Notes under the pieces: model-generated
What the model was told of the DNA's origin: nothing
The model's input: only the letters and a program-made list of their open reading frames with translations
The model's database searches: none
NCBI GenBank assembly: GCA_013368315.1
Contig: JAACJM010000006.1
Location: forward strand, 1,201,836 to 1,265,835
From: Tetrapyrgos nigripes
Lineage: Eukaryota; Basidiomycota; Agaricomycetes; Agaricales; Campanellaceae
Direction of reading: 5' to 3'
DNA length: 64,000 nt
Shown: piece by piece, positions 17,655-58,179 of the stretch
Numbering within the stretch: position 1 is the first letter of the stretch
Layout: every line of letters begins with the position of its first letter
Position numbers and translations under genes: made by a program

Positions 17655-20600
17655 ATGGGTAGAATATCTTGTCAAGACACCTATTCCGGTCAATTGTTCC
17701 ATCATGGGCACGGCTGTGCGCTGTGGAACCCGGAGCCCAATAGGAACGGTATCAGCTCGCAAGACCGTTGGAAAGGTATCTATGAAGAGGGGGTTAGAAT
17801 AGGAGATGTAGGCTTGATCAGTGACTCCGGTGACTTTACAACCCTGTTCAATATCTTCAGACCACCCGGCGATCTGGTTAACGAACCACATGGGGTTCCT
17901 CCTGGTTTCGAGCCTTTGGAGTTACGAGAGAATCTTTACCAGTTTTCAAATGGTCTTTATCATTTGGAGAATGCTAGGGTATCCAGCAAATATACGCAGG
18001 AGATTAAACTGGGTGCTGATGGGACCGTTCTGGCTCCGTATGTCCTCGTTCCTCTTTCGAGCTCGATACCGAGACTGACAGATAGTCGATTTTGTGATAC
18101 CCTTAGGGGGATACCAGTAACGCCTGGAATTGGTCTGGAATATCAATCCTCTCGCGAACAAGGCGCTGTCCTCATACTTCCTAAAGGCGCTTGTCGTGTA
18201 GATTATCGTGGTTTACGGCACATCCGCGACTACGCCACAAGGAACGCCGAATCTTGGTACAGGTACCTCAACGACCAAGTCGGGATGGACGCCGACAACG
18301 GTTCTCTCTACGTCATCACAGGTTTCGACAGAACCAGCTGCTACGAAAACTTGTCTTTTAACAGTTCCTCCATAAACACTTCCATATCTTTCAAATTCTC
18401 CTGTCCCCTTCTACCCAACGGAGATTTCGGAAGCCTATCCCTTTCTTATAGCTCCTTACCCGAACATGAGCATTGGAAAAGAAGCTCAAACCCAGACCAC
18501 ACGCTTCATAATCTGTCCCCATTCATTCGAGGGTTTAAAATCATGATAAGGCGGAATTTTAGGTACAAACCCACCATCAAAATTTTGGACTTGGTCAAGG
18601 CAGATCCTAAAGCATTGCTATACAAGGGTTCTATACCGAGTCTATCATCTAGTGGATCTGCTTCGTTATCCAGCAGCTCGAACTCGTTGACAGTCCGTTC
18701 ACCTGCTCCCCCATCTACGTCATCCACTTCTGGTTCAAGTACCAGGTCAAGTCGACACAGCGACTCTCAATCTTCGTCCCAGTCGCCAAGGGCTCTCGAC
18801 CTCTCACCGATCACGTCGTACTCTTCTCTAGCAGGAGATACAGACTCAGCGAGGTCTGGATCATTGAGCCCGAGGGGGTCTAGCATCTTTGACTCTGATT
18901 CCGACTCTGAATCTGGGATGCCAGGTTCTCAGGTATGAAGGTTTATTTATTCCGTAATTCGACATTACATGCTGACAACGGCCGTACAGCTGCATCATCC
19001 ATCCGATGTAATAAACGAGTACGTTCTGTATAAGGTATGTTGAGCATCGTTTTCCAAAGAACCCTTCGTCTTAGGTAGGAAGGGTTTTAGTGCCCAGACA
19101 CCAATGTTGCTATCACTCATGATGACGAATGGGCATCAGTTTTGGAAGAGGTGAGCCTGAATGACTATTGGCTATCGCATCACTCCTTACCTACATCCAC
19201 TTCTAGTCGGACAGCCAGTTCCCAGATAAATCCACTTTAATCAGCCGAATGCTGGATAAATTCCCATCCAAATTCGAGCAAAGTAAATCGATTCATTAGT
19301 TGATTTGTTTCCCCCAGGCTGATCATACGTGAAAGCAGATTCGAAGGATAATTTCGTACTGGGGACGCTTATGTCTCCGACTTTGCGACGCATTGATCCT
19401 TGTCGTGCATCCACTCCCAGCAAAAGGAAATCACCGGAAACCCCTGCAATAACTACTGTGGCTCTTCCGCCAGACGATGAATCGAGTATGTCTCAACTGT
19501 TCAAACATCAATTCTCAGTGTAACCTATTTATCCAGCAGATGGCAAGACAAAAATGTTGTCCGGCCGGCTGGATGAACACCCATATGTCGATGATGCGAA
19601 TGGGTTTGTCTCTTCCAAGAGACGCAAACTCAGCTCAGACAATATTTTGGTCATTGACGACACTCAGTCTTCGAGTAAGGCCATACCCGTCTATATCTAA
19701 ACGTACTACGAGTAAGTGCGTTCGTGACTCAATGGACTTTGAAAACCAACGCCTCTTCTCATTCTAGCCAGACTGACAGTGTGGTTGCTGGAGGGCCTCA
19801 GCATATGAACGGTGCAACGCAGCCAACCCAGTATACCATGGCAGGCGACGCCTCTTCTCATTCTAGCCAGACTGACAGTGTGGTTGCTGGAGGGCCTCAG
19901 CATATGAACGGTGCAACGCAGCCAACCCAGTATACCATGGCAGGCGACGAACTTTCAGTCTCTGGCGATGATCGATACTTGACGGTCCCCTACCATCCCT
20001 CTCAGTATGCTTTCCGACTGTTCAACGACACGACGCGGCTTCCTATGTATCCTCCCCGAAGCCTCCATCCACCCGGCTTCATGGCATACTGTGTGCCACC
20101 CACCATCGAACGCCCCCAACTTCAAGTAAGCGAGGACCAATCTTTTGACTCCCATCCCCATTCCATATACTCTTTATCGCAGCATTGTGCAGTGCACCCG
20201 CCCACCACACCGCCTCTGGGTAGATATCTGCCTCCCCGGCCCTATCGTGAGGACATGCCAGCGCCAATTCCACTCCACTTGTTGACGCCTCCGTACGCAA
20301 TGACCACTCTACATCCGCGTCCTGATATCCTTGACTTCCAAAGCCTTTCCCCCGAATATAATCAGTCCCAATCTTCTTTCAGTCCTCCAGCCTCATCTCC
20401 GGGATATAGTGGCTCTGAAACTGGTATTGGTAACCCAGCATGTGGCGATTTTGTGGGTAAAGGGGGCGTCTATTCGAACCGGGCCTCGAGCTCAGACGGC
20501 ATGCCGTTCGTTTCATGGGCTACCAGAGACGCTGCTCGCCCACACCTGGATGGAGCAAGTTGTACCGGGATTGCGAAAAAGATAGTCGCATCTCCAGCAA

Positions 20601-20868
20601 ACGAAAGGGCCGCGAGAAACCGGCGATTGGGCAAGAATAAGAAGTCATATACCTGTGATCTCTGCTCTAGGAGTTTCACCGCCAAGCACAATTTGACGCG
20701 TAGGTGGACATTACTATAATTCGCAGTTAAATACTGACTGAAAATTTTTTTCTAGACCATACGAATTCACATTTTGGAATACGAAATTTCCAATGTGAGG
20801 ACTGCGAACGTACTTTTGTGACGAAGCATGTCTTGAAGAGGCACTGGATCAGTTGCAAGAAGAAGTGA
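17655..20868 (+). CDS. NPEPN-domain protein with C2H2 fingers, copy 1
   Basis: Exons: 17655-18932, 18990-19034, 19091-19150, 19207-19282, 19339-19485, 19540-19674, a large exon ending at 20699, and one ending at the stop at 20866-20868. The start matches the MGRIxxQDTYSGQLF start of the other copies. Residues 1-330 are the shared domain: HGCALWNPEPN, then EGVRIGDVGLISDSGDF, AESWYRYLNDQ and NGSLYVITGFDRTSCYEN. A Ser-rich acidic linker (SLSPRGSSIFDSDSDSES) follows. The C-terminus has a finger C-x2-C-x12-H-x3-H (CDLCSRSF...) and a second ending in Cys (CEDCERTF...HWISC). This suggests a nuclear DNA-binding regulator. The junction after 19674 is unclear: the frame stops unless an intron ends near 19793, inside a 99-bp tandem repeat, so this copy may be damaged. 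The N-terminal domain resembles uncharacterised agaricomycete proteins. Confidence 0.75.
19749..19946 (+). repeat. 99-bp tandem duplication in C2H2 gene copy 1
   Basis: Two adjacent units, 19749-19847 and 19848-19946, appear identical. At 33 codons the unit preserves frame and encodes SSHSSQTDSVVAGGPQHMNG followed by TQPTQYTMAG. The first unit also contains the only candidate splice acceptors for the preceding intron. Confidence 0.9.
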
Positions 20869-21171
20869 CCGGATTGATACAGACAATTTTTTTGGGTGTT
20901 TTGCGAGCAGATCTTTAAATGATTGGGCCACTTCCGCTTCGTCCATCGTTCAGTGAAGCGTCCATTATTTTCGAGTACTGTGGTAGGGCCATGTGCCTAC
21001 CGGTTTAACTTATGGCCTATAGAAGGACGGCTGTCAATATATTCAGACCCCTTATCTCAGGCGGCGCCAAAGGCGCCTCTTTTTTTGCTAAACTGGATTT
21101 TTAGCTAAACTGGGCCAAGGCCAGCCCAATTTTTTGTAAAATTTTCCAAAAATTTTCTCGGACAGGCCGCC
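20869..21171. other. Intergenic with a short GC palindrome
   Basis: Downstream of the C2H2 gene. GGCGCCAAAGGCGCC followed by seven T residues near 21062-21085 could fold into a hairpin. No gene. Confidence 0.4.
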
Positions 21172-21339
21172 AGTCCAACTGTCGGAAACGGTCAGAAAGG
21201 GTTACTAATACAAGGAGGTGTGAATGCGATTGTTGACGCTATTCTGCTGGAACCTATTATGACGAGTGCAGAGATGAAACCGGCATTTGGGATTGAAGAA
21301 GTTAGGAGAAGTGTTGTAAGGAGCTGCTTTCAGACGTAG
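21172..21339 (+). pseudogene. EngB GTPase 3' fragment
   Basis: Encodes the last ~55 residues of the GTPase at 44284-45582 (SATVGNGQ..., GGVNAIVDAILLEPIMTSAE, ending RSCFQT and TAG), including the same stop codon. The GTPase motifs are absent, so it is a passenger carried with the duplicated unit. Confidence 0.85.
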
Positions 21340-21692
21340 CTAACTGGCTCTTGGTACGATCTACAAGTAGTCATTGCATTCACTGTCACTGCAGAAAACT
21401 TTTTGCTCTTACGCGAAATCGCTGACGCGCTTCAAGATTGCTTCATCCTGATTACGATGCCACGTGTTCATTACCAAGCAAGATCCCGATCACTCCTTCC
21501 TCTTCGAGTATTCTCTTTCCCTCACCATCCCAGACGATGACGGGAGTCCTGGGATTCCATGGGTCGGGCGTTTCCTTTTCAAGTAATTTCAGCTGAAGGC
21601 GGCGTTCCCAAGCGTCCGTTGATTATGGAGGTCACAGGCTTTGCTTGCAAATGCATACATATAAGTATTAGCCAGAAGTTTAGGCTTCTGTC

Positions 21693-22890
21693 ATGCCCTC
21701 TTCCTCATCATCATCATCACCTCGAACTGTAATAGGTTTTCTGGTTCTCATCGCTTTAGCTTCCGTCTATATAAGCCTCCTTGCTAACGTCCTTGGCTGG
21801 TCATCATTCCCATTCGACAATCTGTCCTTCAACAACTTGAAGAACCTTACAAGAACTCTACCTAGTCTCAGGACAATTCCCATCTTGCTTCCGAGTATAT
21901 CTTCCCTATCACCTTTATCGAGACCACTCTCCTCTACCACGACTACGATGTCCGACTCGTTCCAAATTGCTCCCCGTCGAAGTGAAGAACGTGGCCATGC
22001 CGACCATGAATGGTTGAAAACGTTCCATACTTTCTCTTTCGCTATGTACGTCTTCGGCTTTCTATCTCCTAGTACTCGGCACTAATCTGAACCAACCATC
22101 TTTCATAGGTATCAAGAATCCGGACACGACCACTATGGTTGCCTCCGCGTCATCAACGAAGACCGTGTAGCCGCACATAACGGCTTTGGTACACACTCAC
22201 ATAGGGAATTCGAGATCTTTTCATACGTTGTTGAGGGTGAATTGGAGCAGTACGTGTTCTTCCCCTTACTTCTTAACCTTTTTCGCTGACTAATTACCCT
22301 TTGTCTTCTTCAGCAAAGACTCCATGGGCAACACCGAAATCCTCTCCCGAGGCCACGTCCAACTCACCTCTGCCGGTACCGGTATCTCCCACTCTGAAAA
22401 AGCCCACGGCACCAAACCCGTTCATTTCCTCCAAATCTGGTCAATACCCTCTACGCCCCGTCTCACACCGAAATACTTTACTCGGTTCTTTTCAGACGAG
22501 GAGAAAACGGATAAATGGGTGAGGGTAGTTGCGCCTGTTAGTGCAGAGGGTGTTAAGAAGGATTTGAGAGACGGAAAAGGGTCTGATGGGGATGGGGATG
22601 GACCTGCGCCGGTACAGAGTCCGCTTACGCTTTATGCGAGTATTGTTGGAGAGGGGAAGAAGGTGACGCAGGAGATGACTGGGACCAAGGGATATTTCCA
22701 TGTGATTATGACGAGTGGGTATAATGAGGGTAAAGCGCAAGGTGGTACGGTGAAGATTAGCGGAAGTGGAGGAGAGGTAACGTTGAGAGAAGGCGACGGT
22801 GCTTATTTACAAGTGAAGCCTGGAAGCGAGTTTGTGGTCGAGAATGTGGGTGACAGGAAGGCGGAGGTTTTGTTGTTTGATTTGGCGTAA
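21693..22890 (+). CDS. Pirin-family bicupin, copy 2
   Basis: Exons 21693-22045, 22109-22249 and 22314-22890 give 356 aa. The protein is nearly identical to copy 1; it differs by one extra Ser near the start and a short extra DGDG repeat before [11 protein letters not shown]. The metal ligands H-x-H and H-x-E and the N-terminal hydrophobic segment are all present. Unlike the other copies it has no NPEPN gene downstream on its strand: its 3' flank matches the conserved intergenic segment only to about 23310, and then the sequence switches to the tail of the inverted unit. It therefore sits at the inversion point of the array. Confidence 0.9.
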
Positions 22891-23759
22891 GAGGCTAGGC
22901 TGGACAATGTGTCGAGGTTTTTTTTACTTTTTCTGTATCAATAGCCAAACTTACCGTCCCTGTTTTCGTTAATGAAAGGTCATCCAGATAATTCGCGATC
23001 ATTGTGGGCTTCATCAATGTCAGTGAGCAGGCGATGTTAGGACAAGCGCTCGCACTGCTTGTTGGATCCACATCTGGGGCTTGCTTCATTCTGTCCCTTG
23101 ACTGCATCTACGTTACCTTCCCCGCGCCCTAAGGCTTTAACGTCTGCACCCGCGGATGAGCTCACTGCAGAGGATTGTTGTCCTCTTGGCTTGGTCCTAA
23201 ACAGGTATGATTTCCAGGTCCTTGGAACCGCAACAATGACTCTTCAGCCTCAAATTGCTCCCGTGTCCAAGTATCTCGAAGGGGTAAACGACTTTGCTTT
23301 CGCTACATATTTGAGCTTCGGTACAAGGGGTTGGCCCGCGGTACGCGCGTTGAACAACTTCGCGCTCATTATTGACCGCGTGTAACGTTGACGGCAGGAG
23401 GCCAGGAGTCATTTGCCCCAGCAGTCTTTGTGGATATGGTTCGGTCGAGATGGATTCCGGAGGAAGGGTATTCGAAGGAGATAGGATAGTGTTTGCGTTC
23501 GGTGAAGCTCGTTGCTTGGGACGCCGATGGTCCATGGAGCTTTGGTTGCGCTTTAGACAAAGGGTCTTGGTTTTGAACATGTGGTTGCGGGTTCTTCCAA
23601 TGTGTAGAGGATAGAGTGAAGTACATGGTTTGTTATATGTACATGCCAAGTATACAACATTTCTTTCAGATTCGTGTACGTTACAGTAACCCAGGGCAGA
23701 ATCCAAGGAGTAGTGACTTCGACGATTCCGGGTATATCCAGTAGTTACATACACCACAA
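22891..23759. other. Inversion junction of the array
   Basis: 22891-23310 matches the segment downstream of pirin copy 1. Sequence beyond about 23310 is not shared with the other units, and the minus-strand NPEPN copy 2 ends at 23760. The strand of the units changes here. Confidence 0.6.
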
Positions 23760-26730
23760 TCAAGGTGCATAAATACTACTAGGCGTCTGGCTTCTGCGAG
23801 AAACGAAACCAAATTCCGTAGACGGAAGGGACGTTGCACGGTCACTATGACCAGACGAACTGGCCGCCCTCAAGTTCGCGCCATCTGCCGTTGAAGAAGC
23901 CTGCCTCGTGGTCGCCCCTCGCTTGAACTTGCTGCAGGTTCTCATATGTCTGTTCAAGACATGTTTCGTTCCATAACTGCAACCACATTTGTCGCAAGTA
24001 AAGTTCCTAATACCGTAGTGCGAGTTGAGATGATCTGTGTCACAAAAAGAAATTAGTATGATATTCAAACAACGAGTGATAATAGCTAATAAGACGAACT
24101 AGCTAGATTATGTTTGGCCGTGAAAGTCGCTGGGCATAAATCGCAGCGGAACCTTGGAGATTTGAGCCGTCGTCTCGAGCTAGCCGCTGCGGCGACTGCG
24201 GGACTGGCTACTATCATCTTCTTCAGAGAATCTTGGCCCGGGTTAGCCCTGGCTGCCACGAGGGGATATATATTCCAGGGGCTTGAAGAAGAAGAGTTGG
24301 ATGAGCTGGGAGTATGATCTGAGTGAGGATAAGGAGAGCACGCCGAAGTACTGGTGCTGTGAATTGATGGGTATGGCCACGGACTGACCGATCCAGCCCC
24401 GAAAGACAAGATATCACCGCTGATGTCTGGTGGTGGTGGTGACGGGATTGTCGTGAAATGGTCAAACGGGCTGTTGGTGCCAGAGGAACAAGAGACGAGG
24501 CTAGGTGTTGAAGTCCCAACGCTGTTAATATCCCATGTTGAGGATACTATTGAGAAAGGAGAGGACTGAGTACTGATGGCAACCTCCTGCGGTTTATAAG
24601 GGACGAAATATTCGCAGTGATTGCCCGCGTCATAGTTGGTTGTATAGGCCATATAGCCACTAGGAATATACGGGTCCTCAGGGTCTTCCATTTTCACGGA
24701 AATGGTCTCACTCGAAGACTGAGTATCGTCAACTTTGACCAAAGAATTGTCTGAACTGAGTTTGCGCCTCTTGGAAGAGATAAACTCGTTCGTATCATCG
24801 CCGACATATGAGTATTCATCGAGCCAACTGGACAACATTTTTGTCTTGCCATCTGTTGGATAAATAGGTTACACTGAGAATTGATGCTTGAGCTTGAACA
24901 GCGAGGACATACTCGATTCATCGTCTGGCGAAAGAGCCACAGTAGTTATTGCAGGGGTTTCCGGTGATTTCCTTTTGCTGGGAGTGGATGCACGACAAGG
25001 ATCAATGCGTCGCAAAGTGGGAGACGTAAGCATCCCCAGTACGGAATCGTCCTTCGAATCTACTTTCATGTATGATCAGTGTGAAGTGAATAAATTAACT
25101 AATGAATCGATTTACTTTGCTCGAACTTAGACGGGAATTTATCCAGCATTCGGCTGATTAAAGTGGATTTATCTGGGAATTGGCTGTCCGACTGGAAGTG
25201 GATGTAGGTGAGGAGTGATACAATGGCCAATAGTCATTCAGGCTCACCTCTTCCAAAACAGATGCCCATTCGTCATCATGAGTGATGGCAACATTGGTGT
25301 CTGGGCACTAAATAATTTCCTAAGACGAAGGGTTCTTTGGAAAACGATGCTTAACATACCTTGTCCAGAATGTACTCGTTTATTACATCGGATGGATGAT
25401 GTAGCTGCAAAGTCATTATCAGCATGTAATGTCGAGCTATGAAATAAACCCTCGATACCTGAAATGGTATCCCAGATTCAGAGTCTGAATCAGAGTCAAA
25501 GATGCTAGACCCCCTCGGACTCAATGAACCAGACCTCGCCGAGTCTGTATCTCCTGCCAGAGAAGAGTACGACGTTATCGGTGAGAGATCGAGAGCCCCT
25601 GGCGACTGAGATGAAAATTGAGAATCGCTCTGCCGACTTGATCTGGTACTTGAACCAGAAGTTGATGGTGTGGATGGGGGAGCAGGCGAACGGACTGTCG
25701 ATGAGTTCAAGCTGCTGGGTGGCGAAGCGGATCCGCTGGATGACAGACTCGGTATAGAACCCTTGTACAGCAATGCTTTAGGATCCGCCTTGACCAAGTC
25801 CAAAATTTTGATGGCGGGTTTGTACCTAAAATTCTGCCTTATCATGATTTTAAACCCTCGAATGAATGGGGACAGATTATGAAGCGTATGGCCTGGGTTT
25901 GATCCTCCTCTCCAATGCTCATGTTGGGGCAAGGAGCTATAAGACAGGGATAGTCTTCCGAAATCTCCATTGGGTAGAAGAGGACAGGAGAATCTGAAAG
26001 ATAGGGAAGTATCTCTGGAGGAACTGGCAAAAGACAAGTTTTCGTAGCAGCTGGTTCTGTCGAAACCCGTGATGACGTAGAGAGAACCGTTGTGGGCGTC
26101 CATCCTGACTTGGTCATTGAGGTACCTGTACCAAGATTCGGCGTTCTTTGTGGTGTAATCGCGGATGTCCGGTAAACCACGATAATCTACACGACGAGCG
26201 CCTTCAGGAAGTATGAGGACAGCGCCTTGTACGCGAGAGGATCGATATTCCAGACCAATGCCTGGCGTTACTGGTATCCCCCTGGGACCATCAAAAAGTT
26301 GACCATCTGTCAGTCTCGGTATGGAACTCGAAAGAGGTAGGACATACGGAGCCAGAATGGTCCCATCAACACCCAGTTTAATCTCCTGCGTCTCTTTGCT
26401 AAATACCCTAGCATTCTCCAAATGATAAAGACCATTTGAAGAAAAGAGATGATTCTCCCGAAACTCCAAAGGCTCGAAACCAGGAGGAACCCCATATACC
26501 TCGTTCACTGGATCGTCGGGTGGTCTGAAGATATTGAACAGGGTTGTAAAGTCACCGGAGTCACTTATCAAGCCTACATCTCCTAGTCTAACCCCCTCTG
26601 AATAGATATCTCCCCAATGGTGTTGGGACCCGGTGCCGATCCTATTAGGCTCCGGGTTCAACAGCGCACAGCCGTGGCCATGATAGAACAATTGACCGGA
26701 ATAGGTGTCTTGACGAGTTATTCTACCCAT
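23760..26730 (-). CDS. NPEPN-domain protein with C2H2 fingers, copy 2
   Basis: Seven exons on minus: 26730-25459, 25404-25360, 25307-25248, 25191-25116, 25059-24913, 24852-24100 and 24034-23760. All junctions keep frame and give 875 aa. The N-terminal ~330 residues are the shared domain (HGCALLNPEPN, EGVRLGDVGLI, AESWYRYLNDQ, GSLYVITGFDRTSCYEN). A Ser-rich acidic linker follows, then the SPTLRRIDPCRASTPSKRK linker and a basic SSKRRKLSS, a likely nuclear localisation signal. A Ser/Pro-rich stretch precedes finger 1 (CDLCPATF...NHLNSH, C-x2-C-x12-H-x3-H) and finger 2 (CDKCGCSY...RHMRTC, last ligand Cys). This fits a sequence-specific transcription regulator. The N-terminal domain function is unknown. 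Pirin copy 3 lies 0.8 kb upstream on the same strand. Confidence 0.88.
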
Positions 26731-27504
26731 AGCCGGTGGTCTAGTAAGCGCAGAGGAGTGCGAGAGTGGGGGACTGATAGTGGGTGACTTGAGTGGGGGG
26801 ATTTCAAGTTGGAAGGAAATGGCAGCGTACCAGGCATTTTAAGGAGTCATCTCGAGCAAGCAAGCGCCTGCACAAAAATAGAGCTTTATATTAGTTCGCT
26901 TTTGGAAAAAGCAACAGCTTTCGGCGTTCGCCACATGGCTATCCTCTGTTAATCCTGTGCAGGTCTGCACGTTTAGATTTGGGCAAAACACACGAGAAAA
27001 CACGAGAATTCACAATAGTGCCAATACTTTGCGGGAGAAGACACAGGAGTAGCAGGGCGTTGAACGACAGGGCTAAGAAAGCGAAAGCACAGTCGTTTGC
27101 CCCTTCGAGATACTTGGACACGGGAGCGATTTGAGGCTGAAGAGTCATCGTTGCGGTTCCAAGAACCTGGAAATCATACTTGTTTAGGACGAAGGCGACA
27201 GTCCTCTGCAGTGAGGTCATTCGCGGGTGCAGACGTTGAAGCCTTAGGGCGCCCACTATTGAAGCTAGACGCGGGGAAGGTGACGTAGACGCAGTCAAGG
27301 GACAGAATGAAGCAAGCCCCAGGTGTGGGTCCAACAAGCAGTGCGAGCGCTTGTCCCAGCATCGCCTGTTCACTGACATTGATGAAGCCCACAAAGATCA
27401 CGAATTATCTGGATGACCTTTCATTAACGAGAACAGGGACGGTAAGTTTAGCTATTGATACAGAAAAGTAAAAAAAACCTCAACACATTGTCCAGTCCAG
27501 CGTC
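26731..27504 (-). other. Conserved pirin-to-NPEPN intergenic segment
   Basis: Minus-strand counterpart of 16754-17654, without the internal duplication. It encodes the same recognisable peptides (ILSLDCVYVTFPAS; LQPQIAPVSKYLEG) in one broken frame. Confidence 0.35.
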
Positions 27505-28685
27505 TTACGCCAAATCAAACAACAAAACTTCTGCCTTCCTGTCACCTACATTCTCGACCACAAACTCGCTTCCAGGCTTCACTTGTAAATAAGCACCGTC
27601 GCCTTCCCTCAACGTTACCTCTCCTCCACTTCCGCTAATCTTCACCGTACCCCCTTGTGCTTTACCCTCATTATACCCACTCGTCATAATCACATGGAAA
27701 TATCCCTTAGTCCCAGTCATCTCCTGCGTCACCTTCTTCCCCTCTCCAACAATACTCGCATAAAGCGTAAGCGGACTCTGTACCGGTGCAGGTCCATCAG
27801 ACCCTTTTCCGTCTCTCAAATCCTTCTTAACACCCTCAGCACTAATAGGTGCAACTACCCTCACCCATTTATCCGTTTTCTCCTCGTCTGAAAAGAACCG
27901 AGTAAAATATTTCGGTGTGAGACGGGGAGTGGAAGGTATAGACCAGATTTGGAGGAAATGAACGGGTTTGGTGCCATGGGCTTTTTCAGAGTGGGAGATA
28001 CCGGTGCCGGCAGAGGTGAGTTGGACGTGGCCTCGGGAGAGGATTTCGGTGTTGCCCATGGAGTCTTTGCTGAAGAAGACAAAGTGTAATGCGTCAGCGA
28101 AGGACAGGAAGTATGGGGAAGGACACGTACTGCTCCAATTCACCCTCAACAACGTATGAAAAGATCTCGAATTCCCTATGTGAGTGTGTACCAAAGCCAT
28201 TATGTGCCGCTACACGGTCTTCGTTGATGACGCGGAGGCAACCATAATGATCGTGTCCGGATTGTTGGTACCTATGAAAGATGGTGGGTTCAGATCAGTG
28301 CCGAGTAGTGGGAGATAGAAAAGCCGAAGACGTACATAGCGAAAGAGAAAGTATGGAACGTTTTCAACCATTCATGATCGGCATGGCCGCGTTCTTCACT
28401 TCGACGGGGAACGATTTGGATAGAGTCGGACATCTTAGTCGTGGTAGAGGAGAGTGGTCTCGATAAAGGTGATAGGGAAGATATACTCGAAAGCGAGATG
28501 GGAATTGTCCTGAGACTAGGTAGAGTTCTTGTAAGGTTCTTCAAGTTGTTGAAGGACAGATTGTCGAATGGGAATGATGACCAGCCAAGGACGTTAGCAA
28601 GGAGGCTTATATAGACGGGAGCTAAAGCGATGAGAACCAGAAAACCTATTACAGTTCGAGGTGATGATGATGAGGAAGAGGGCAT
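27505..28685 (-). CDS. Pirin-family bicupin, copy 3
   Basis: Exons 28685-28336, 28271-28131 and 28069-27505 give 351 aa. It is almost identical to copies 1 and 2, with the metal-binding H-x-H (THSHREFE) and H-x-E (SHSEKA) kept and the same hydrophobic N-terminal extension. The exon 2 start reads [10 protein letters not shown] instead of YQESGHDHYG. NPEPN copy 2 follows on the same strand. Just upstream is an internally truncated EngB fragment. Confidence 0.9.
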
Positions 28686-28983
28686 GACAGAAGCCTAAAC
28701 TTCTGGCTAATACTTATATGTATGCATTTGCAAGCAAAGTCTGTGATCTCTATGATCAACGGATGCTTGGGAATGCCGCCTTCAGCTGAAATTACTTGAA
28801 AAGGAAACGCCCGACCCATGGAATCCCAGGACTCCCGTCATCGTCTGGATAGTGAGGGAAAGAGAATACTCGAAGAGGAAGGAGTGATCGGGATCTTGCT
28901 TGGTAATGAACACGTGGCATCGTAATCAGGATGAAGCAATCTCGACTGCGTCAGCGATTTCGCGTAACCCGCGTCCCCTTCCT

Positions 28984-29163
28984 GACAGTTGCACTGGCGG
29001 ACTGTCCGATACTAGCATCTATCTCCTCGCTAACAGCCTCGGCCACAGCAGTCCTTATATATGCTTTCAACGTCTGTATCAAATTTCTCGCCTCTGCGAG
29101 GAACAAGTTGACTTTCGTGAATACTGACTGAGTAGCAACCACCTGTCTTCGTTTCAGTGCCTT
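28984..29163 (-). pseudogene. EngB GTPase internal fragment
   Basis: Encodes KRRQVVATQSVFTKVN...EARNLIQTLKAYIRTAVAEA, matching the TKxD (G4) region of the GTPase at 44284 but with the TKID motif changed to TKVN and a short deletion. It is joined directly to pirin upstream sequence, lacking the last ~50 codons. The same truncated fragment is at 36858-37037. Confidence 0.8.
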
Positions 29164-29172
29164 CTGTGTTGC

Positions 29173-29880
29173 ATGTCTCAAAACTTCATCTTCTCCTTTT
29201 CTTCTTTGAAGACCTTGATCTTTTTATCCGAACCTACCAACCCATTCGGGAATGTTGGAGACTCGCACCTCCAATGTCCCGACATTGGGGTGGTCCACGT
29301 TTTAGGAGCCACGTCGGCGATGCTGTATTGTGTGACTACTTTGAAACATCCGCATGCTGCAACTGTTCTTAGCATATGCTCTGAAGAAGTTTCCATATCG
29401 GCGGATAACTGTTTTGATGGCAGTCGCAACCTTCTACAGACTTTGGCACTTCTCTCCAGCAGCTCAGCTTACGAGCCGCAATGGTGTCTGCTGTCTACTG
29501 ATTCGAGAGGCAAAGTGGTGAGAATTTGGTCTCAGCCTAGCTTTTCTCGTTGTAATTTCTCCATACTTCGTCTTTCGATCTTCGTAGTTGCGGTACATGA
29601 ATCCCAACCCCCAACACATCTTCATCGACCTTTCAGATGACTCCAAGTTCTCACCCCTTTCCTTCAGAATCTCGAATCTCGAATATGATATGACCAAAAC
29701 TTCATGGTCTCAAACTCAGCTTAGCCCAGCTATCGCTTAGGCTTGATGTTAATGACACTCCTGCCGATCCAAAGACAGATTGGCCAGTACTGGACCAAGT
29801 CCTCTCAGATGTGAAATGATTTCCAAATCTGACTCGTCTCGCCTTTTATCCGCGTGGGCTGATCATTGGCACACAGGGAA
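29173..29880 (+). pseudogene. Decayed F-box/LRR-like gene fragment, copy 1
   Basis: Frames on plus give FSSLKTLIFLSEPTNPFGNV and, after frame changes, segments such as DWPVLDQVL and FPNLTRLAFYPRG, which resemble the leucine-rich part of agaric F-box proteins. No intact reading frame. It is duplicated at 37047-37740, so it moved as part of the amplified unit. Confidence 0.35.
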
Positions 29881-31120
29881 CCGTATTTGGGAAAGAATGG
29901 AGACACAAATCCTCAGCCGCAGAGCTCGGTTGACTCAAGATACCAGTATGTAAAGAGTTCAGGTTGGGAATGGTATGATATGCTACCGTGATCCCCAAGG
30001 TACCACCTCCTCGAGAAGCAGTGATTGAAACGTTGGAACAGAAGAAGATACTACATGATGCTGAGTGGGCTTAGAAGAACTTAATGATGGACAAAATCAG
30101 GTCGTTGTTACCGCGGATTGAAGGAAGATGGAAGTTGTTTTGAGAGAACCATCGACGACATATGATTAGACGGCAATTAGACGGACTGACAGATTTTAAA
30201 CAAACCAAGCATGTCCACGTTTTTTGTTTGTGGTTACAGTAAGTGCCACTAATCAAATAATTTTGTATTCGGAGACAGCATATGCAGTCCGCTAATCCCA
30301 ATTTTTTCTACTAGAGCTAGCCTCTGAGCATAACGAGTAGTCGACACGAGTCAAAGGAGGAATGACTGGTCAAGATACGATCCCGTGTCGCGTCTTTTTT
30401 TGTGTCGCGTCCACCGGTAGCTGTTCAGATAGCACTTTCGCGCTGGAGGATTACGGAAGGAATCCGTATCATGCAGTTCAACGAAATCCCCGTCCGATGC
30501 TATACCAGTGAATTTGGAGATCAGTGTGAGTAGTACCAGCTTTGATAAATATAACAAGTACAACGGCGAGTTTTTCAGAAGAGAAAGGCAAACTTCGCTG
30601 CCGATCACTTCCGCTTTCCCAAGCGCGGATAGCCCCTATAAGATAGGCCTTACCTAGTCTCTCCTAGACAGACACTCTGACGATCTACTAAAGTAGATGT
30701 ACTGTAGGTGGCCTTACCGAGGGTCGACGTAAGTACTGAGAAGCTATAGTGTAAGTAAGCCCCATCTATAGATAATATAAAACAATACTACAACTGTTTC
30801 GAGAGGTTTCTTGAAGATTCTGGGAGAGGACCGTGCACAGAATGAGCACCGACGTTGTTGAAGTCAATCAACAAACCGCGACGCGCGACGCGGCAAGGTC
30901 ACACAAGGATTTGATAGGGGAGTACTGCCAATCAGGTGCTGGAGAAGTTGTTTACAATGTTTACAAATTGATATTCATCTACGCCTAAAAATAGACTAAG
31001 GTGTGTCGACTTCGATGAACCAGACTGTGGTAAAGGTAAGAGAAAATATATGTACTGAATGCTCCACCCCCCCGTGTGGAGACCAAAAGGTCCTAGCAGT
31101 GTGATTGGCTACTGGTATAG
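29881..31120. other. Intergenic, partly a segmental duplication
   Basis: About 29881-30550 matches 37741-38400 (for example the GATTACGGAAGGAATCCGTATCATGCA area compared with 38270). The match ends near 30550. No gene recognised between there and the stop of the TEA gene. Confidence 0.5.
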
Positions 31121-34100
31121 CTATAACAAGTGGTCGATAGAGTCGGAGCTGTCATCGCGATAACCAGCCTCTCGAAAGCCTCTGAAACGCTCTAGATTGT
31201 CCCTATAGTATGGCGGCGAGGTCCGGTCGTAGTTCTCCTCAGAACCACTGGGGGTAGTGGGGACAGAACCAGACCAGCCATCGTGGTTTCTAAGGTCGTA
31301 TCCAGCGTAGTTCGATAGCATCTGGTCGAAGAAATCAAGGTTCTGCGGGTAAGCCTGATTGACAGTTGGTTGCACGCTGGTTTCTGAGTTGGTCTCCATA
31401 GAATAGAGCATTCCAAGGCCATTCTCCTCCGCCGAAGTTCGTAGGTTTGAATGAGATTGCGGGTAGCTATAGCGAAACTTGTACACCGCTGAGAAGAGGA
31501 CAAATGGAGTCGAGGAATTTGGATTATCACGAAGTATGTTTTGATAAACCGTAAGTTTGGTGGGGTCTGCATCGAGATCACTTCAGACGCAACCTTCTCA
31601 CTTCATGAAAGCGTTACCCACCTTCTGACTGGCAAATAGCATCCCATAAGCCACTGCTAAAGGAGGCTCTGTACATATACGTGCTGTCCGGAACTGCGTA
31701 TGGCATTTGGGAATGATCGAGAGGACTAAGAGCAGAAACGTCACTCTTCCAAGCCTTCTCGGTGTCCTGATCATTTTGGTAGACTCTGAAGATCGAACGA
31801 ATCTCTGATGTAGGTAGTGCGGATCCAGAAGTGAAGGTGAGAGTGGGATCGATGGCGCGTATGGGTACTGGGGACGCAGGGGCTTCGGAGGTCCCCGTGG
31901 AAGTTGAGCTAAAATAATTCGACGCCCCGGATGATCCCATTGCTGTGTGACCTTCGGGTACGATATCGTAGGTATAGATGATAGGCCGTAATGGCCTAGC
32001 AGCACACTCGTTTGCTTGAAAGTTAGGGGACCCGGGAAGTGATGCGTCGCTCAACGATGGGGAGGCATCAGAGAGGCCGTAACGTTTCAAACAACTGCGG
32101 TTTGAGATTGGGGCGTTTTGCTTCCCGACGGGGGACAGTAGGTGTTGGACTGAGTAGAGCCAACCATGTGTTTAAGGTTCAGTAACACGACGTACGGCGC
32201 AGGAGATGACCGGCGACAACTTACGCTCTTTAGCATTGCATGTGTCTCTAAGGTGTTGCAGGCGACTGCCGACTTGTTTAGCAGTGCGATATTTCCCAGT
32301 CGCGCGCAGCATGTATTCGGAGATGAAGCGATTCCTCATGGGGTACCTAAACTGGACGGTTAGCGTCCTGGTCTACAGGGCATTCTTAAGACTTACCGGC
32401 CGAGCAGGACAGTCTCTCGAGAGTTATCTGGTTGGTATTTAGCCAGACCTGCAAATGTAAAACATCGTTTGACAATTTCTACATGGCGGCTGTCAAAAGG
32501 TCGTACCTTCAAGCAGAGCAGCTTCGAGCTCAGGAGGCCATACCATTTCACCGCCCTTCTGGGTTTTCCACCACTGGCGACCGCCGAAAGAATTGTTTGA
32601 ACTGAATTTGCGCCTCTTGGAAGAGAGAAACTTGTTCGCATCATCGAGATATGTGTGTTCATCCGGCCAGCTAGAGAACATTTCTGTCTTGCCATCTGCT
32701 GGATAAATAGGTTACACTGAGAATTGATGCTTGAACAGGTAGGACATACTCGATTCATCGTCTGGTGGAAGAACCACAGTAGTTATTGCAGGGGTTTCTG
32801 GTAAGAACGAGTTTTCGTCTTTCATCGCAGCCATATAGCCATTAGTAATATACAGGTCCACAGGGTCTTCCATGTTCACGAAAATGGCCTCATTTGAAGA
32901 TTGAGCATCGTCAATGCCCAAAGAATTGTCTGAACTAAATTTGTGCCTCTTGGAAGAGAGAAACTCGTTCGCATCATCGAGATATGTGTGTTCATCTGGC
33001 CAGCTGGAGAACATTTTTGTCTCAGTGTCATCTGCTGGATAAACAGGTTACACTGAGAATTGATGCTTGAACAAGTAAGACATACTCGATTCGTCATCTG
33101 GCGGAAGAACCACAGTAGTTATTGCAGGTGTTTCTGGTGATTTCCTTTTGCTGGGCGTGGATGCACGACAAAGATCAACGCGTTACAAAGTGGGAGACAT
33201 GGGCGTCTCTAGTATGGAATCGTCCTTTGAATCTGCTTCCATGTATGATCAGCCTGATAGGAACAAATCAACTGATGAATCGATTTACTTTGCTCGAATT
33301 TGGATGGGAATTTGTCCAGCATTCGGCTGATTAAAGTGGATTTATCTGGGAACTGACTGTCCCACTGAAAGTAGATGTAGGTGAGGAGTGACACGATGGC
33401 CAATAGTCATTCAGGCTCACCTCTTCTAAAACTGACGCCCATTCGTTATCATGAGTAATAGCAACATTGGTGTCTGGGCACTAAAAAAGTTCCTACCTAA
33501 GACGAAGGGTTGTTTGGAAAACGATGCTCAACATACCTTGTGCAGAATGTACTCGTTTATTACATCGGATGGATGATGTAGCTGCAGGGTCATTATCAGC
33601 ATGTAATGTCAAGCTATGGAATAAATAAGCCTCCATACCTGAAAAACTGGCTCCCCAGATTCAGAGTCGAGATCAGAGCTAAAGATGCTAGACCCCCTCG
33701 GGCTCAATGAACCAGACCTTGCCGAGTCTGTATCTCCTGCTAAAGAAGAGTACGACGTTATCGGTGAGAGGTCGAGGGCCCCTGGCGACTGGGATGAAAA
33801 TTGAGAATCGCTGTGTCGACTTGACCTGGTACTTGAACCAGAAGTCGATGGCGTGGATGGGGAGCAGGCGAACGGATTGTCGATGAGTTCAAGCTGCTGG
33901 GTAGCGAAATAGATTCCCTGGATGACAGACTTGGTACAGAACCCTTGTACAGCAATGCTTTAGGATCCGCCTTGACCAAGTCCAAAATTTTGATGGCGGG
34001 TTTGTACCTAAAATTCTGCCTTATCATGATTTTGAACCCCCGAATGAATGGGGACAGATTATGAAGCGTATGGCCTGGGTTTGATCCTCCTCTCCAATGT

Positions 34101-34914
34101 TCATGTTGGGGCAAGGAGCTATAAGACAGGGATAGTCTTCCGAAATCTCCATTGGGTAGAAGAGGACAGGAGAATCTGAAAGATAGGGAAGTATCTCTGG
34201 AGGAACTGGCAAAAGACAAGTTTTCGTAGCAGCTGGTTCTGTCGAAACCCGTGATGACGTACAGAGAACCGTTGTTGGCGTCCATCCTGACTTGGTCATT
34301 GAGGTACCTGTACCAAGATTCGGCGTTCTTTTTGGTATAATTGCGGATGTCCTGTAAACCCTCATAATCTACACGGCGAGCACCTTCAGGAAGTATGAGG
34401 ACAGCGCCTTGTTCGCGAGAGGATCGATATTCCAGACCAATTCCAGGCGCTACTGGTATCCCCCTGGGGCATCAAAAAATTGACCATCTGTCAGTCTCGG
34501 TATCGAACTCGAAATAGGTACTAGGACATACGGAGCCAGAATGGTCCCATCAGCACCCAGTTTAATCTCCTGCGTATGTTTGCTGAATACCCTAGCATTC
34601 TCCAAATGATAAAGACCATTTGAAAACAGGAAAAGATTCTCTCGAAACTCCAAAGGCTTGAAACCAGCGGGGACCCCATATACTTCGTTCACCAGATCGT
34701 CGGGTGGTCTGAAGATATTGAACAGGGCTCTAAAGTCACCGAAGTCACTGATCAAGCCTACATCTCCTATTCTAACTCCCTCCGCATAGATATCTTTCCA
34801 ACGGTCTTGCGAGCTGGTACCGATCCTATTGGGCTCGGGGTTCCACAGCGCACAACCGTGGCCGTGATAGAACAATTGTCCGGAATAGGTGTCTTGACGA
34901 GTTATTCTACCCAT
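31121..34914 (-). pseudogene. NPEPN-domain gene with TEA/ATTS domain, copy 3 (broken)
   Basis: Minus-strand exons: 34914-33639, 33581-33537, 33480-33421, 33364-33289, 33232-33086, 33031-32750, 32695-32507, 32448-32397, 32346-32225, 32149-31622 and 31488-31121. The N-terminal half matches copies 2 and 4 but is broken by one-base losses in C runs at about 34461-34470 and 33855-33865 and by a TAA at 33183-33185. From 32695 on, the exons splice in frame into a TEA domain: VWPPELEAALLEGL, then GRYPMRNRFISEYMLRATGK and RTAKQVGSRLQHLRDTC, the helix-3 signature of the TEAD/AbaA/Tec1 family. An ~300-residue tail follows. The linker and NLS-like exon occurs twice (33031-32750 and 32695-32507). The full fusion cannot be read as it stands, but the TEA half looks preserved and could be made from an internal start. 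Confidence 0.8.
32225..32600 (-). other. TEA/ATTS DNA-binding domain within NPEPN copy 3
   Basis: The domain spans three exons joined by two introns (32449-32506 and 32347-32396) in consistent phase. It begins at WWKTQKGGEMVWPPELE and ends at LQHLRDTCNAKE. The QVGSRLQ recognition-helix segment matches the fungal form of the TEA domain. No frameshift or stop falls within it. Confidence 0.85.
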
Positions 34915-37037: not shown

Positions 37038-37046
37038 CTGTGTTGC

Positions 37047-41728: not shown

Positions 41729-42664
41729 GGCTGGGGTTTCGGTTGGTTCAGTAAGCGCAGAGTAGTGCGAGAGAGTGGGGGACTGATAGTGGGGGACTGA
41801 TAGTGGGGGACGTGAGTGGGTAGATAGAGCTTGGTATTAGCTCGCTTTGGGAAAAGTAGCAACAAATTTCGCCACATGGCTATGCTGTTACTATTTTTAG
41901 GGTGGAACTAAGAAATATCGTTAGAGGTGAACTACCACAAAATATTTATCGACGGCCCTAGAAACTTGTCGGCGTACTCTTGAGACCCTAAACTTTTGTT
42001 CTACCAAGTTTGAAGGGTTTCCGAGGACGATAGTGCAGTGCCAGAGTGCGCCGAACAGACCCTTCGACTTGGCAGGAAAGTGAACACCATGACAGGGTGT
42101 GGGACAAGCTCACCCCTGTGGCCAGAATTGGACGTCAAGATTTGGGCAGGACATGAGAAACACGAGTATTCACAATAGTGACAATACTTTGCGGGAGAAG
42201 ACCGTTGAACGAGAAGACCAAGAAAGCGAAAGCAAAGTTGTTTACCCCTTCGAGATACCTCGACACGTGAGCGATTTGAGGCTGAAGAGTCATCGTTGTG
42301 GTTCCAAGGACCTGGAAACCATACTGAAGGCAAGCCGAGAGGACGACAGTCTTCTGCGGTGAGGTCATCCGCGGGTGCAGACGTTAAAGCTTTAAAGCCT
42401 TAGGGCACCCACTATTCAGAAGCTAGACGCGGGGAAGGTGACGTAGACGCAGTCAAGGGACAGAATGAAGCAAACCCCAGATGTGGATCCGACAAGCAGT
42501 ACGAGCGCTTGTCCCAACATCGCCTGTTCACTGACATTGATGAAGCCCACAATGATCGCGAATTATCTGGATGACCTTTTATTAACGAAAAAAGGGGACG
42601 GTAAGTTTAGCTATTGATACAGAAAAAGTAAAAAAAACCTCGACACATTGTCCAGCCCAGCATC
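41729..42664 (-). other. Conserved pirin-to-NPEPN intergenic segment
   Basis: Contains the minus-strand version of the segment at 16754-17654, ending at the pirin copy 5 stop. It also has a stretch not seen in the other units (about 41900-42130) and a tandem GTGGGGGACTGATA repeat at 41775-41808. Confidence 0.35.
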
Positions 42665-43866
42665 TTACGCCAAATCAAATAATAAAATCTCCGCCTTCCT
42701 GTCACCCACATTCTCGACCACAAACTCGCTTCCAGGCTTCACCTGTAAATAAGCACCGTCGCCTTCCCTCAACATTACCTCTCCTCCACTTCCACTAATC
42801 TTCACTGTACCGCCTTGCGCTTTATCCTCATTATACCCACTAGTCATAATCACATGGAAATATCCTTTGGTTCCAGTCATCTCCTGCGTCACCTTCTTCC
42901 CCTCTCCAACAATACTCGCATAAAGCGTAAGCGGACTCTGTACCGGTGCAGGTCCATCCCCATTCCCATCAGACCCTTTTCCGTCTCTCAAATCCTTCTT
43001 AACACCCTCTGCACTAACAGGCGCAACTACCCTCACCCATTTATCCGTTTTCTCCTCGTCTGAGAAGAACCGAGTGAAATAGTTCGGTGTGAGACGGGGA
43101 GTGGAAGGTATAGACCAGATTTGGAGGAAATGAACGGGTTTAGTGCCATGGGCTTTTTCAGAGTGAGAGATACCGGTGCCGGCGGACGTGAGTTGGACGT
43201 GGCCTCGGGAGAGGATTTCGGTGTTGCCCATGGAGTCTTTGCTGAAGAAGACAAAGGGTAATGCGTCAGCGAAGAAGGACAAGAAGTATGGGGAAGGTCA
43301 CGTACTGCTCCAATTCACCTTCAACGACGTATGAAAAGATCTCAAATTCCCTATGTGAGTGTGTACCAAAGCCATTATGTGCGGCTACACGGTCTTCGTT
43401 GATGACGCGGAGGCAACCATAGTGGTCGTGTCCGGATTGTTGGTACCTATGAAAGATGGTTGGTTCAGATTAGTGCCGAGTATTGGGAGATAGAAAAGCC
43501 GAAGACGTACATAGCGAAAGAGAAAGTATGGAACGTTTTCAACCATCCATGGTCGGCATGGCCACGTTCTTCACTTCGACGGGGAACGATTTGGATAGAG
43601 TCGGACATCTTAGTCGTGGTAGAGGAAAGTAGTCTCGATAAAGGTGATAGGGAAGATAAACTCGAAAGCGAGACGGGAATTGTCCTGAGACTAGGTAGAG
43701 TTCTTGTAAGGTTCTTCAAGCTGTTGAAGGACAGATTGTCGAATGGGAATGATGACCAGCCAAGGACGTTGACAAGCAGGCTTATATAGACGGGAGCTAA
43801 AACGACGAGAACTAGAAAGCCTATTGCAGTTCGAGGTGATAATGAAGATTATGAGGAACAGGGCAT
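42665..43866 (-). CDS. Pirin-family bicupin, copy 5, with damaged N-terminus
   Basis: Exons 43866-43511, 43446-43306 and 43241-42665. The pirin core and metal ligands ([14 protein letters not shown]) are intact. The ATG used by the other copies (43866) is followed after five codons by TAA at 43849-43851. The hydrophobic leader is therefore not translated from that start. Translation could begin at MKNLTRTLP (43719) or at [11 protein letters not shown], which is where ordinary pirins start. The product would then be soluble, unlike the anchored-looking copies. This copy is next to the full EngB gene, so the unit seen here is the likely original arrangement. Confidence 0.8.
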
Positions 43867-44031
43867 GACAGAAACCTAAACTTCTGGCTAATACTTATAC
43901 ATGTGCATTTGCAAGGAAAGCCTGTGATCTCCATGATCAACGGACGCTTGGGAACGCCGCCTCCAGCTGAAATTACTTGAAAAGGAAACGCCCGACCCAT
44001 GGAATCCCAGGACCTCGTCATGGTCTCACGT

Positions 44032-44061
44032 CGAAAAGGGACAAATTTTTGTCCCTTTTCG
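44032..44061. repeat. Perfect foldback upstream of pirin copy 5
   Basis: A 14-bp arm (CGAAAAGGGACAAA) and its exact complement are separated by 2 nt. The other four pirin upstream regions lack it although the flanking sequence is shared, so it is a copy-specific insertion. Confidence 0.8.
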
Positions 44062-44283
44062 GCGTGTCTGGGATGGTGAGGGAAAGAGAACACTCGAAAA
44101 GGAAGGAGTGATCGGGATCTTGCTTGGTAAGGGACATGTGGTATCAGGTGGTATCGTAATCAGGATGAAGCAATCTCGAAGCGCGTCAGCGATTTCGCGT
44201 AAGAGCAAAAAGTTTTCTGCAGCGAGATTACTGACAGTGAGTACAATGACTATAGGTTGTAGATCGTACCAAGAGCCAGTTAG

Positions 44284-47770: not shown

Positions 47771-47778
47771 CGACGACG

Positions 47779-56047: not shown

Positions 56048-58179
56048 ATGGGCTGGGAGACACTCACTCGCCAAGACGCATATTCTAGTCAACTTTTCTG
56101 CCGTGGACATGGCTGCGCGCTTTTGAACCCCGAACCCAATATGATTGGCATTAATTCAGGACCGGCATCACAGAATAGTATCTGCAACGAAGGTATACGA
56201 GTGGGCGACGTGGGCTTGATCAGGCCCTCTGGGGACTTCTGCTCTCTATTCAATATCTTCAAGTCGAGAGAACATCCCGTAAATACAATCTACGGTGTTC
56301 CCTATGATTTCCAGCCCTTGGAGTTCCGCCCTAATCTCCTTTTTTCAACACCGCACCACTATCACCCACCAAATGCACGGATATACAGCAAGCATACACG
56401 AGAAGTGATACTCGGTGCTGAAGGAACGGTTTTGGCTCCGTGCGTACCGGTGGCCAGGTTGAAAGACAATGGACTGATGAAACTTGTTATTGTTTAGTGG
56501 AATGCCCTTTGGTCCTGGAATCGGTGTCGAAGTGCAATTTTCTCGTTCGCAGGGAGCCGTCCTACTCCTCCCAGCTGGGGCTCGCCGCATAGATTACGAC
56601 GGTCTCCCAGACATGCGCGAATATGCTACGAGAAAGGCCGAATCCTGGTACCGTTTTCTACAAGACCAAGTCAGAATGGATGCAAACAACGGCTCCCTCT
56701 ATTTGATAACAGGCTTCGATAGGACCAATTGCTACGAAAATGTCGCTTTCCAGAGCTCTTCCAAAGCATCTTCCTTCTCTTTCCGGTTTTCCTGTCCTGT
56801 CCTAGCCGACAGCGATCTTGCCAGACTTTCTTTGTCGTATAGTTCACTGCCCGAGCATGAACACTGGAAGGGGGCGTCAAGCCAAGGACACACGCTAGAT
56901 AACTTGTCCCCTTTCATTCGGGGTTCAAGATCATGATAAAACAGGATTTTTGGTACAGGTCCGCTGTCAAGCTCATGGACCTGACCAAGGCAGATCCCAA
57001 AGCGTTAATGTACAGAGGGCCTGCACCGAATTTTCCCAGCGGGTCTACTACATCCCTCACTCCTTCAGGGTCAGGTTCTTCTCCTGTACCATCCTCGGCT
57101 TCATCCTCCTTCGGCTCAACCACCAGTCGGAGTCAAAACAGCACATTTCAGTCTTCGTCACCAGAAGTTGGTGAGCTGTCGCCAGCAACATCTTGTACTT
57201 CGCTAGAGGGTAGCGACTCGTTCTCCGATTCACTGAGCCCGAGAGGATCAAGCGTCTTTGACTCTGATTCGGAATTCGATTCCGGAGTACCCAGCTTTCA
57301 GGTATGAACTTGGCTCGTCGTACTAGTCAAGTTACGCTAATGGTTTTGGATATAGCTATGCCATCCTTCCGATATAGTAAAACGAGTACATACTCGACAA
57401 GGTATATCTTGATCGTCAGTCAAAGGACTCTCGTCTGACGGGTCTTTCAGTGTCCCGATGCCCTCGTTGCTATCACTCATGACAAAGAGTGGACAGCAAT
57501 TTTGGAAGAGGTGTGTCTGAATGGTCTTTGAGTCCATGACAGCATCTCTAACTCGCATCCATTTGCTAGACTGATAGCCAATTTCCTGATAACTTAACCT
57601 TGATCAGCCGAATGCTGAGCAAGTTTCCGTCCAAATTTCAACAATGTGAGTAGTTATCACTGGTTGATATGGGTTTCAGTCTGAGCATGAATTTAGATGA
57701 CAAGTCTGACATCCAAGACACCTCTCACTACCCAATCTATTCGCGGCAGCCCATGAACCAACCTCGCTCTTTCTCCTACCGCGACACCCACTTTGACCAA
57801 TATCCCTACGCCGCCACTATCTCATCTAATGAAGGATGGTCACCCAATGGAAAGCAACCCTCTCCTACCATTTCTGAACCACAGAAACGGAAAACCCGTC
57901 GCGAAAAACCCAAGATTGCGCTAGCGCCAGACCAGCCCTTTACAACTCAAGGAAAGCCACAAGCTCGGGTTTACGTTGCTTGTTTGCGATGGTAAGTAGA
58001 ACCATTTGTCAGTTCTTTTGCATATGTGCTTAACAACCCATAGTCGAACCCGCAAAATTCGTTGTGACGGTGCTAAACCAGTTTGTCATAATTGTGGTCG
58101 ACGAAGCAATGGCACTAACGAATGTACATATGATGCTGTACCACGCCGTCGCTGGAGTAGGGGTACATGCCAGGCTTAG
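56048..58179 (+). pseudogene. NPEPN-domain gene with Zn2Cys6 cluster, copy 5 (two frameshifts)
   Basis: Exons 56048-56439, 56498-57301, 57356-57401, 57451-57510, 57570-57645, 57697-57991 and 58044-58179. The shared domain is clear although diverged (HGCALLNPEPN, EGIRVGDVGLI, AESWYRFLQDQ, GSLYLITGFDRTNCYEN). The small-exon signature recurs, with the 45-nt exon at 46 nt. The C-terminus holds a complete fungal binuclear cluster, C-x2-C-x6-C-x6-C-x2-C-x9-C (ACLRCRTRKIRCDG, PVCHNCGRR, ECTYDAVPRRR), ending 12 residues later. Two single-base changes break the frame: a missing T in GGGGTTCAAG near 56921 and an extra A near 57380. Both are in homopolymers, so this is a recent pseudogene or the bases were miscounted. 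It lies 10 kb outside the array with no pirin beside it, so it is probably an older relative. Confidence 0.8.

Follow-up and report, generated by a model that had tools for sequence, protein, structure and literature searches.

Close paralogues of a mushroom gene family share a conserved N-terminal exon set and mostly carry C-terminal parts copied from resident genes

How does one protein domain come to stand in front of unrelated C-terminal parts in neighbouring genes, and what could it do there? We addressed this question in a window of 64,000 bases of the Tetrapyrgos nigripes genome (bases 1201836-1265835 of the 1,265,835-base contig C6 in a 98.5 Mb assembly), in which five paralogues share an N-terminal module (N-module): c1 on the + strand, c2-c4 on the - strand and c5 on the + strand. 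An earlier note on this DNA had placed five such genes here and held that one unknown domain had repeatedly been put onto unrelated tails. Reading of the sequence located all five copies at those coordinates with tails of the kinds named, and the joins are real at the DNA level; that note did not pick up where the tails come from, how recently they were copied, how far the module extends or that its predicted fold is gasdermin-like. In this work we show that the N-module is a single conserved exon set, that c1, c3, c4 and c5, like C205, the closest copy beyond the window, carry tails recently copied at the DNA level from the 3' or inner portions of genes elsewhere in the genome, and that close sisters carry different tails. 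Tentatively, and at somewhat less than an even chance, we read the five genes as members of an Agaricomycete family that combines an unchanging N-terminal module with C-terminal parts open to exchange, and that may act in cell death in the two-part manner of gasdermins. Loci outside the window are named here after their contigs, and the parts of the five genes are as follows.

17655-18037, 18107-18932, 18990-19034, 19091-19150, 19207-19282, + strand: c1 N-module, 5 exons (spliced GT-AG model without stop; database protein P0003)
19339-19485, 19540-19674 (19339..19674), + strand: c1 acceptor linker, exons E6-E7 (model; junction aligned with c2)
19685..20868, + strand: c1 captured tail with two C2H2 fingers (copy of the C182 gene; PF00096 in P0003)
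23760..26730, - strand: c2, N-module, linker and two C2H2 fingers (8 exons, 853 amino acids plus stop)
33289..34914, - strand: c3 N-module (95% amino-acid identity to c4 over 327 codons; ratio of nonsynonymous to synonymous divergence, Ka/Ks, 0.13)
32583..33235, - strand: c3 linker, E6, E7, then a second E6-E7 pair (sequence reading)
31121..32582, - strand: c3 captured TEA tail (copy of the C64 gene; TEA passes the Pfam cut-off)
41346-41728, 40454-41276, 40352-40396, 40240-40299, 40105-40180 (40105..41728), - strand: c4 N-module (spliced model; P0002)
39749..40048, - strand: c4 acceptor linker, E6 repeated once (sequence reading)
38432..39748, - strand: c4 captured tail (copy of the C71 gene minus the 5' part of that gene)
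56048..57645, + strand: c5 N-module (homopolymer changes near 56920 and 57380; sister of the C45 copy)
57700..58179, + strand: c5 captured tail with Zn2Cys6 cluster (inner part of the C326 gene; PF00172 in P0006)

Each window tail and the C205 tail were compared with the whole genome. The c1 tail matched the C182 gene (L060) at 89.5-90.7% of nucleotides over 19685-20978, which reaches beyond the stop codon, and at 87-88% of amino acids. The c3 tail matched the C64 gene (L034) at 90.8% of nucleotides over 32582-31139 with introns retained, and the c4 tail matched the C71 gene (L059) at 90.1% over 39674-38364 and 87.8% over 39748-39675; in the latter case the similarity includes introns and extends beyond the stop, and the 5' exons of the C71 gene are missing from c4. 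For c5 the identity to the C326 gene (L061) was 94-95% of nucleotides over 57700-58151, with one inner stretch missing, and for C205 it was 93.6% to a C38 gene, the first ~105 residues of the C205 tail resembling another locus, C69, at 71% of amino acids. The TEA fusion at C45 is older, with 76.8% nucleotide identity to C64. For the c2 tail no close donor was found in the genome, its best free-standing C2H2 match being C20 at 62% of amino acids; a native C2H2 tail common to c1 and c2 seems unlikely, since c1 is closest to C182, c2 to C20, and the two reach 50-57% with each other. None of the donor contigs is among the contigs with N-module matches. As judged by eye, the junctions are sharp, lie in or beside linker exons and share little common sequence, and in c4, C205 and C45 a single open frame spans the junction. 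Such sharp junctions, together with the retained introns, argue for DNA-level copying or end-joining and against reverse transcription.

The shared domain of about 330 residues in the earlier note is present in all five copies, but it is interrupted by an intron and the true module is longer. The intron (GTATGT...AG) lies after codon 127 and measures 66-69 nucleotides in c1, c2 and c4, where it reads through; it is removed in the spliced models and in database proteins P0002 and P0003. A frameshift of c3 near residue 130 was considered and rejected: because the intron lies there, the 1-nucleotide difference is intronic and reflects intron length. Nor does the module end at the Ser-rich linker, for three small exons beyond it (LHHPSDVINEYILDK, CPDTNVAITHDDEWASVLEE and SDSQFPDKSTLISRMLDKFPSKFEQ) are conserved in the alignment of all five window copies. 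Of the 17 full-length loci read elsewhere in the genome, 16 matched between one and three of these exons at 26 bits or more, none being listed for C17. The Ser-rich insertion within the module takes up about 100 residues. Exon E6, read from sequence and models, has equal phase at both ends, and therefore its skipping would preserve the frame.

Public models join module and tail in c1 (P0003, 910 amino acids, with the C2H2 tail), c4 (P0002, 871 amino acids) and c5 (P0006, 596 amino acids, with Zn2Cys6), and c2 is covered by an 8-exon model of 854 codons counting the stop, with GT-AG introns throughout. The first seven exons of c1 and the first six of c4 likewise have GT-AG introns and an open frame as in c2. 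The linker and the first finger of c2 lie in the same exon, and its fingers were identified by motif and by the 50-57% amino-acid identity to those of c1. In c3 the TEA exon is in frame and continuous with the second linker exon, and the TEA domain exceeds the Pfam cut-off in both the c3 and C45 tails. As assembled, c3 has a 1-nucleotide homopolymer deletion in the Ser linker (~33860) and a TAA in E6 (33183-33185), and c5 has 1-nucleotide homopolymer changes at the two positions listed above; model P0006 uses altered exon borders that drop the damaged FIRGF block and shorten E3. These lesions may be assembly errors or decay. The c4 tail had been called HIRIP3-like, a resemblance for which neither Pfam, the CHZ model nor PDB sequences gave support; the CHZ profile PF09649 matched C84 only in the genome, not c4. 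The c1 tail carries an in-frame 99-base repeat at 19750-19949, in which ASSHSSQTDSVVAGGPQHMNGATQPTQYTMAGD occurs twice, and after the c1 copy (21050-21130) there is a GGCGCC-AAA-GGCGCC hairpin with GGGCCAAGGCC-type sequence, possibly a small-transposon end.

A tree of 48 modules was made by a quick method with SH-aLRT (approximate likelihood-ratio) support; its deep branches are unsure and seven rows are long-branched, and only shallow sister pairs were used. Within the genome these pairs are c3 (TEA) with c4 (support 95), c5 (Zn2Cys6) with C45 (TEA) (97) and C172 (UCH) with C170 (84). Among the database proteins they are P0021 (Fungal_trans) with P0022 (CAP-Gly) (99) and P0008 (transmembrane by eye) with P0009 (bZIP) (100). 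The six N-module pairs among c1-c4 gave Ka/Ks of 0.13-0.59 and synonymous divergence (Ks) of 0.14-0.17. The two donor-copy pairs measured had Ks of 0.11 (c4/C71) and 0.12 (c3/C64), near that of the modules, which indicates that the tails were captured at about the time the array arose. Between the TEA exons of c3 and C64 we counted 9.0 synonymous changes at 53.0 sites and 2.0 nonsynonymous changes at 178.0 sites, and for the c3 tail beyond TEA Ka/Ks was 0.66 (p 0.1). For c4 and C71 it was 0.47 (p 0.022), the core exon alone being non-significant (p 0.12). A low donor-copy Ka/Ks can stem from the donor alone, except in the TEA domain, where the total change is below what a free copy alone should gather, which suggests that the copy itself was constrained.

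Across the genome the N-module was found in at least 56 matching pieces, grouped into about 30 loci; this count is a lower bound, yet some contigs are near-identical (C150/C170, 99.7%). We read the five window copies and 21 other loci, 4 of these being truncated fragments excluded from the tail table; C1, C45:20k and two loci on C51 lie outside the read set. The Pfam scan covered 9 of the 17 full-length loci (C24, C30, C172, C150, C90a, C14, C17, C205 and C45), the other eight being C170, C85, C90b, C89, two at C28, C5 and C144. A Pfam domain was found in five of the nine: TEA (C45), CCCH (C24), UCH (C172, with a sub-threshold ubiquitin-like match as well), WD40 (C17) and caspase (C30, read from joined sequence pieces). 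Of these, C45 alone is represented by a joined database model (P0005). By eye, C150/C170 and C14 also seemed to carry Zn2Cys6-like tails, but Pfam did not support them and they were not counted. At C89, C5 and C144 (L053, L055 and L056) a second, diverged N-module stands directly downstream, as though the tail were a module. Truncated N-modules with an in-frame TAG occur at L040, L042, L044 and L045 (C339 twice, C424 and C142) within a repeat of more than 900 bases, about 97-99.6% alike where compared, which looks like a mobile or amplified element carrying the 5' part of the module.

In the protein database, where each search scored about 8000 candidates, at least 50 N-module proteins came from other species, in genera including Marasmius, Dendrothele, Stygiomarasmius, Mycena, Dentipellis, Lactarius, Neolentinus, Exidia and Botryobasidium. 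The reading in the earlier note would have failed had the domain never been fused to nuclear domains elsewhere; protein models of other species do show fusions. Precomputed Pfam domains were present in 10 of the 50, none being listed for the other 40: bZIP, TEA, ankyrin (2), caspase (P0017), Fungal_trans, CAP-Gly, kinase with MLKL_N (P0044), RRM_2 and DUF6699. A Pfam scan of 38 members, at least 5 of them from T. nigripes, gave bZIP in 3 and TEA in 2, and a GTPase match of P0012 fell slightly below its cut-off. Some database proteins bear names of the 'cdc4' type, which Pfam did not support in P0013 and P0020, the two that were scanned. The C205 tail is also present, by eye, in Marasmius tenuissimus protein P0025. 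A similar small C-terminal domain (GTRVWYWNARGAVQHGTV.../GTRVCFWSGSGKEMYGTV...) occurs in L054 (C28, T. nigripes) and P0019 (Mycena); by eye it resembles a Tudor-type barrel, and Pfam gave nothing for P0019. The nuclear tails stressed by the earlier note do not extend to a common theme, because non-nuclear ones occur: caspase, kinase/MLKL-like, ankyrin and CAP-Gly elsewhere, and UCH and WD40 downstream of modules in this genome.

What might the module do? It is plausible that it has a conserved effector or sensing function which the tails retarget, and for the TEA, bZIP and zinc-finger fusions nuclear retargeting is possible. Structure prediction suggests a gasdermin-like fold for the N-module, in which the Ser-rich linker would be inserted ahead of the last elements. 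The cell-death partners (caspase, and kinase with MLKL_N) together with this predicted fold favour a role in cell death or recognition, and tails that copy the fungus's own regulators suggest a bait or guard function. We propose only conditionally that the N-module would be a membrane-active effector, silenced or aimed by its tail; that the copied tail of an own regulator would serve as bait, sensor or inhibitor; that disturbance of the tail by cleavage, modification, binding or a non-self variant would free the effector; and that ectopic copying into phase-compatible linker exons would renew the repertoire. A more specific version, which we consider unlikely, is that these genes are 'integrated-decoy gasdermins' of mushroom immunity or allorecognition, whose inhibitory C-terminus would be continually replaced by copies of own regulators, each a tripwire guarding a different cellular protein. 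An extra domain copying a host gene, as expected of integrated decoys, was found in c1, c3, c4, c5 and C205, and not in c2.

Several results weigh against the gasdermin-like proposal. TM-scores were low, at 0.17-0.26 by query and about 0.3-0.4 by target in the best rows, with high root-mean-square deviation; the sequences behind the two models overlap for the most part, and the E-value of the second was no better than 1.7e-3. The gasdermin profile PF04598 was absent from full Pfam lists of 28 proteins (E<=0.01 or 0.05) and from the genome at E<=10, in a six-frame search that ignores introns and with a model that may miss fungal gasdermins; nor was it among the 25 families listed of 56 in the 38-member scan. 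The N-module itself matched no Pfam family in the full lists of 28 proteins, and a sequence-profile search of the PDB returned no gasdermin chain and one chance match. Helix 1, as an alignment-based segment in 11 rows, has a net charge of -2 to +1, which does not make it clearly basic. No protease was found among 10 window open reading frames (ORFs) tested, the remaining ones being judged by eye. At C24, C30, C172 and C17 the partner directly follows the module exons on the same strand, without a joined model. The missing close donor of c2, the lesions of c3 and c5 and the unsupported name of the c4 tail count on the same side. Finally, all five window tails look nuclear, which would fit the nuclear idea equally well.

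That idea, which we hold to be rather unlikely, takes the module as a partner-binding or regulatory domain, directed by new DNA-binding tails to genomic or chromatin sites and having no membrane role. Besides the appearance of the window tails, it gains from TEA and bZIP recurring in other species, with Fungal_trans once, and from the strong conservation of the captured TEA domain. It accounts poorly for tails without a nuclear theme, namely caspase, ankyrin, CAP-Gly, MLKL_N/kinase, a weak GTPase and a transmembrane tail seen by eye, for the UCH, WD40 and caspase sequence downstream, and for a predicted fold that is that of pore formers.

The fusions could also be products of rearrangement hotspots or of travel with mobile elements, mostly functionless or interfering with their donors. 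The c3 and c5 lesions, the truncated fragments repeated at four places and the retrotransposon and Tc3-like sequence downstream of c5 are all in keeping with this, and Helitron gene capture is known in Pleurotus according to the available text of PMC4289320; yet frames stay open over 8 exons in c2 and across the junctions of c4, C205 and C45, the N-modules are under purifying selection and similar architecture occurs in several genera, and we judge this explanation improbable. It is very improbable that annotation simply joined separate neighbouring genes. The lesions would still have to be explained away, and four loci have no joined model, but a single open frame runs through linker and tail in c4, C205, C45 and c2, the c4 tail is without the 5' part of its donor, the c3 TEA exon is in frame with the linker, and annotations agree in kind across several species.

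The array is interleaved with another repeated gene. Five pirin-like copies stand among c1-c4, mutually about 87-96% alike in self-comparison, and the Pirin domain was tested in one of the five; a pirin-like copy matching those of the window also adjoins the C205 module.

~15.3-17.0, 21.4-23.1, 27.2-29.0, 35.2-36.8 and 42.4-44.2 kb (overall 15292..44208), strand not given: pirin-like copies (self-comparison)

A tandem duplication of 1.1 kb (45592-46689 and 46682-47778) has 99.9% identity and is either very recent or an assembly artefact. Downstream of c5 (58635-62981) there are retrotransposon gag (below its cut-off), reverse transcriptase fragments and a Tc3-type transposase helix-turn-helix.

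Among known systems, gasdermins, including fungal RCD-1 and HET-Q1 (fGSDM), resemble the family described here in the predicted N-terminal fold and in placing an N-terminal effector, here a putative one, ahead of a separate C-terminal part, and fungal gasdermins also form large, unevenly distributed families. They differ in that there is no detectable sequence similarity, that the module carries its Ser-rich insertion, and that long, unrelated, exchangeable C-terminal domains take the place of a short inhibitory tail. According to the available sections of PMC12881547 and PMC10197012, fungal gasdermins have short tails, about 80% of their genes adjoin protease genes, and, as one of the two states, they are clearly commoner in Ascomycota; these sections make no mention of gasdermin fusions with exchangeable domains. 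In the two-gene clusters of fungal gasdermins a protease gene of the S8 or CHAT type stands beside the gasdermin gene; at our locus no protease gene was found among the 10 neighbouring ORFs tested, and caspase sequence is fused in P0017 and lies downstream in C30. The effector repertoire of fungal NOD-like receptors (NLRs; Goodbye-, HeLo- and MLKL-like) shares the Agaricomycete setting and the MLKL_N/kinase partners (P0044), but the N-module is not part of it by any Pfam match and is not described in the available text of PMC9815663, which presents the N-termini of Basidiomycota NLRs as poorly annotated. Among the literature matches listed, in a search with much literature outside its coverage, there was no published description of the N-module, nor of a gasdermin-like executioner family in mushrooms.

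Plant NLRs with integrated decoys likewise fuse a constant module to copies of the host's own regulators; here NACHT and NB-ARC were absent from the full Pfam lists of 28 proteins and the bait role is our proposal. Host-transposase fusion genes are transcription factors made by fusion, whereas no transposase domain appears in the Pfam lists of the 28 proteins. Polymorphic toxins, in the available text of PMC3482391, keep one part constant while recombination swaps their C-terminal parts. Both differ from the present genes, which are eukaryotic and intron-containing, with tails copied from resident genes. Since donors can be identified for the captured tails of several members of one family, the way in which new domain combinations originate becomes open to direct test. 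Should the predicted fold and the cell-death interpretation both prove right, they would bring a gasdermin-like executioner family to mushrooms, one linked to swappable sensors, an arrangement that plant NLRs and bacterial conflict systems also use.

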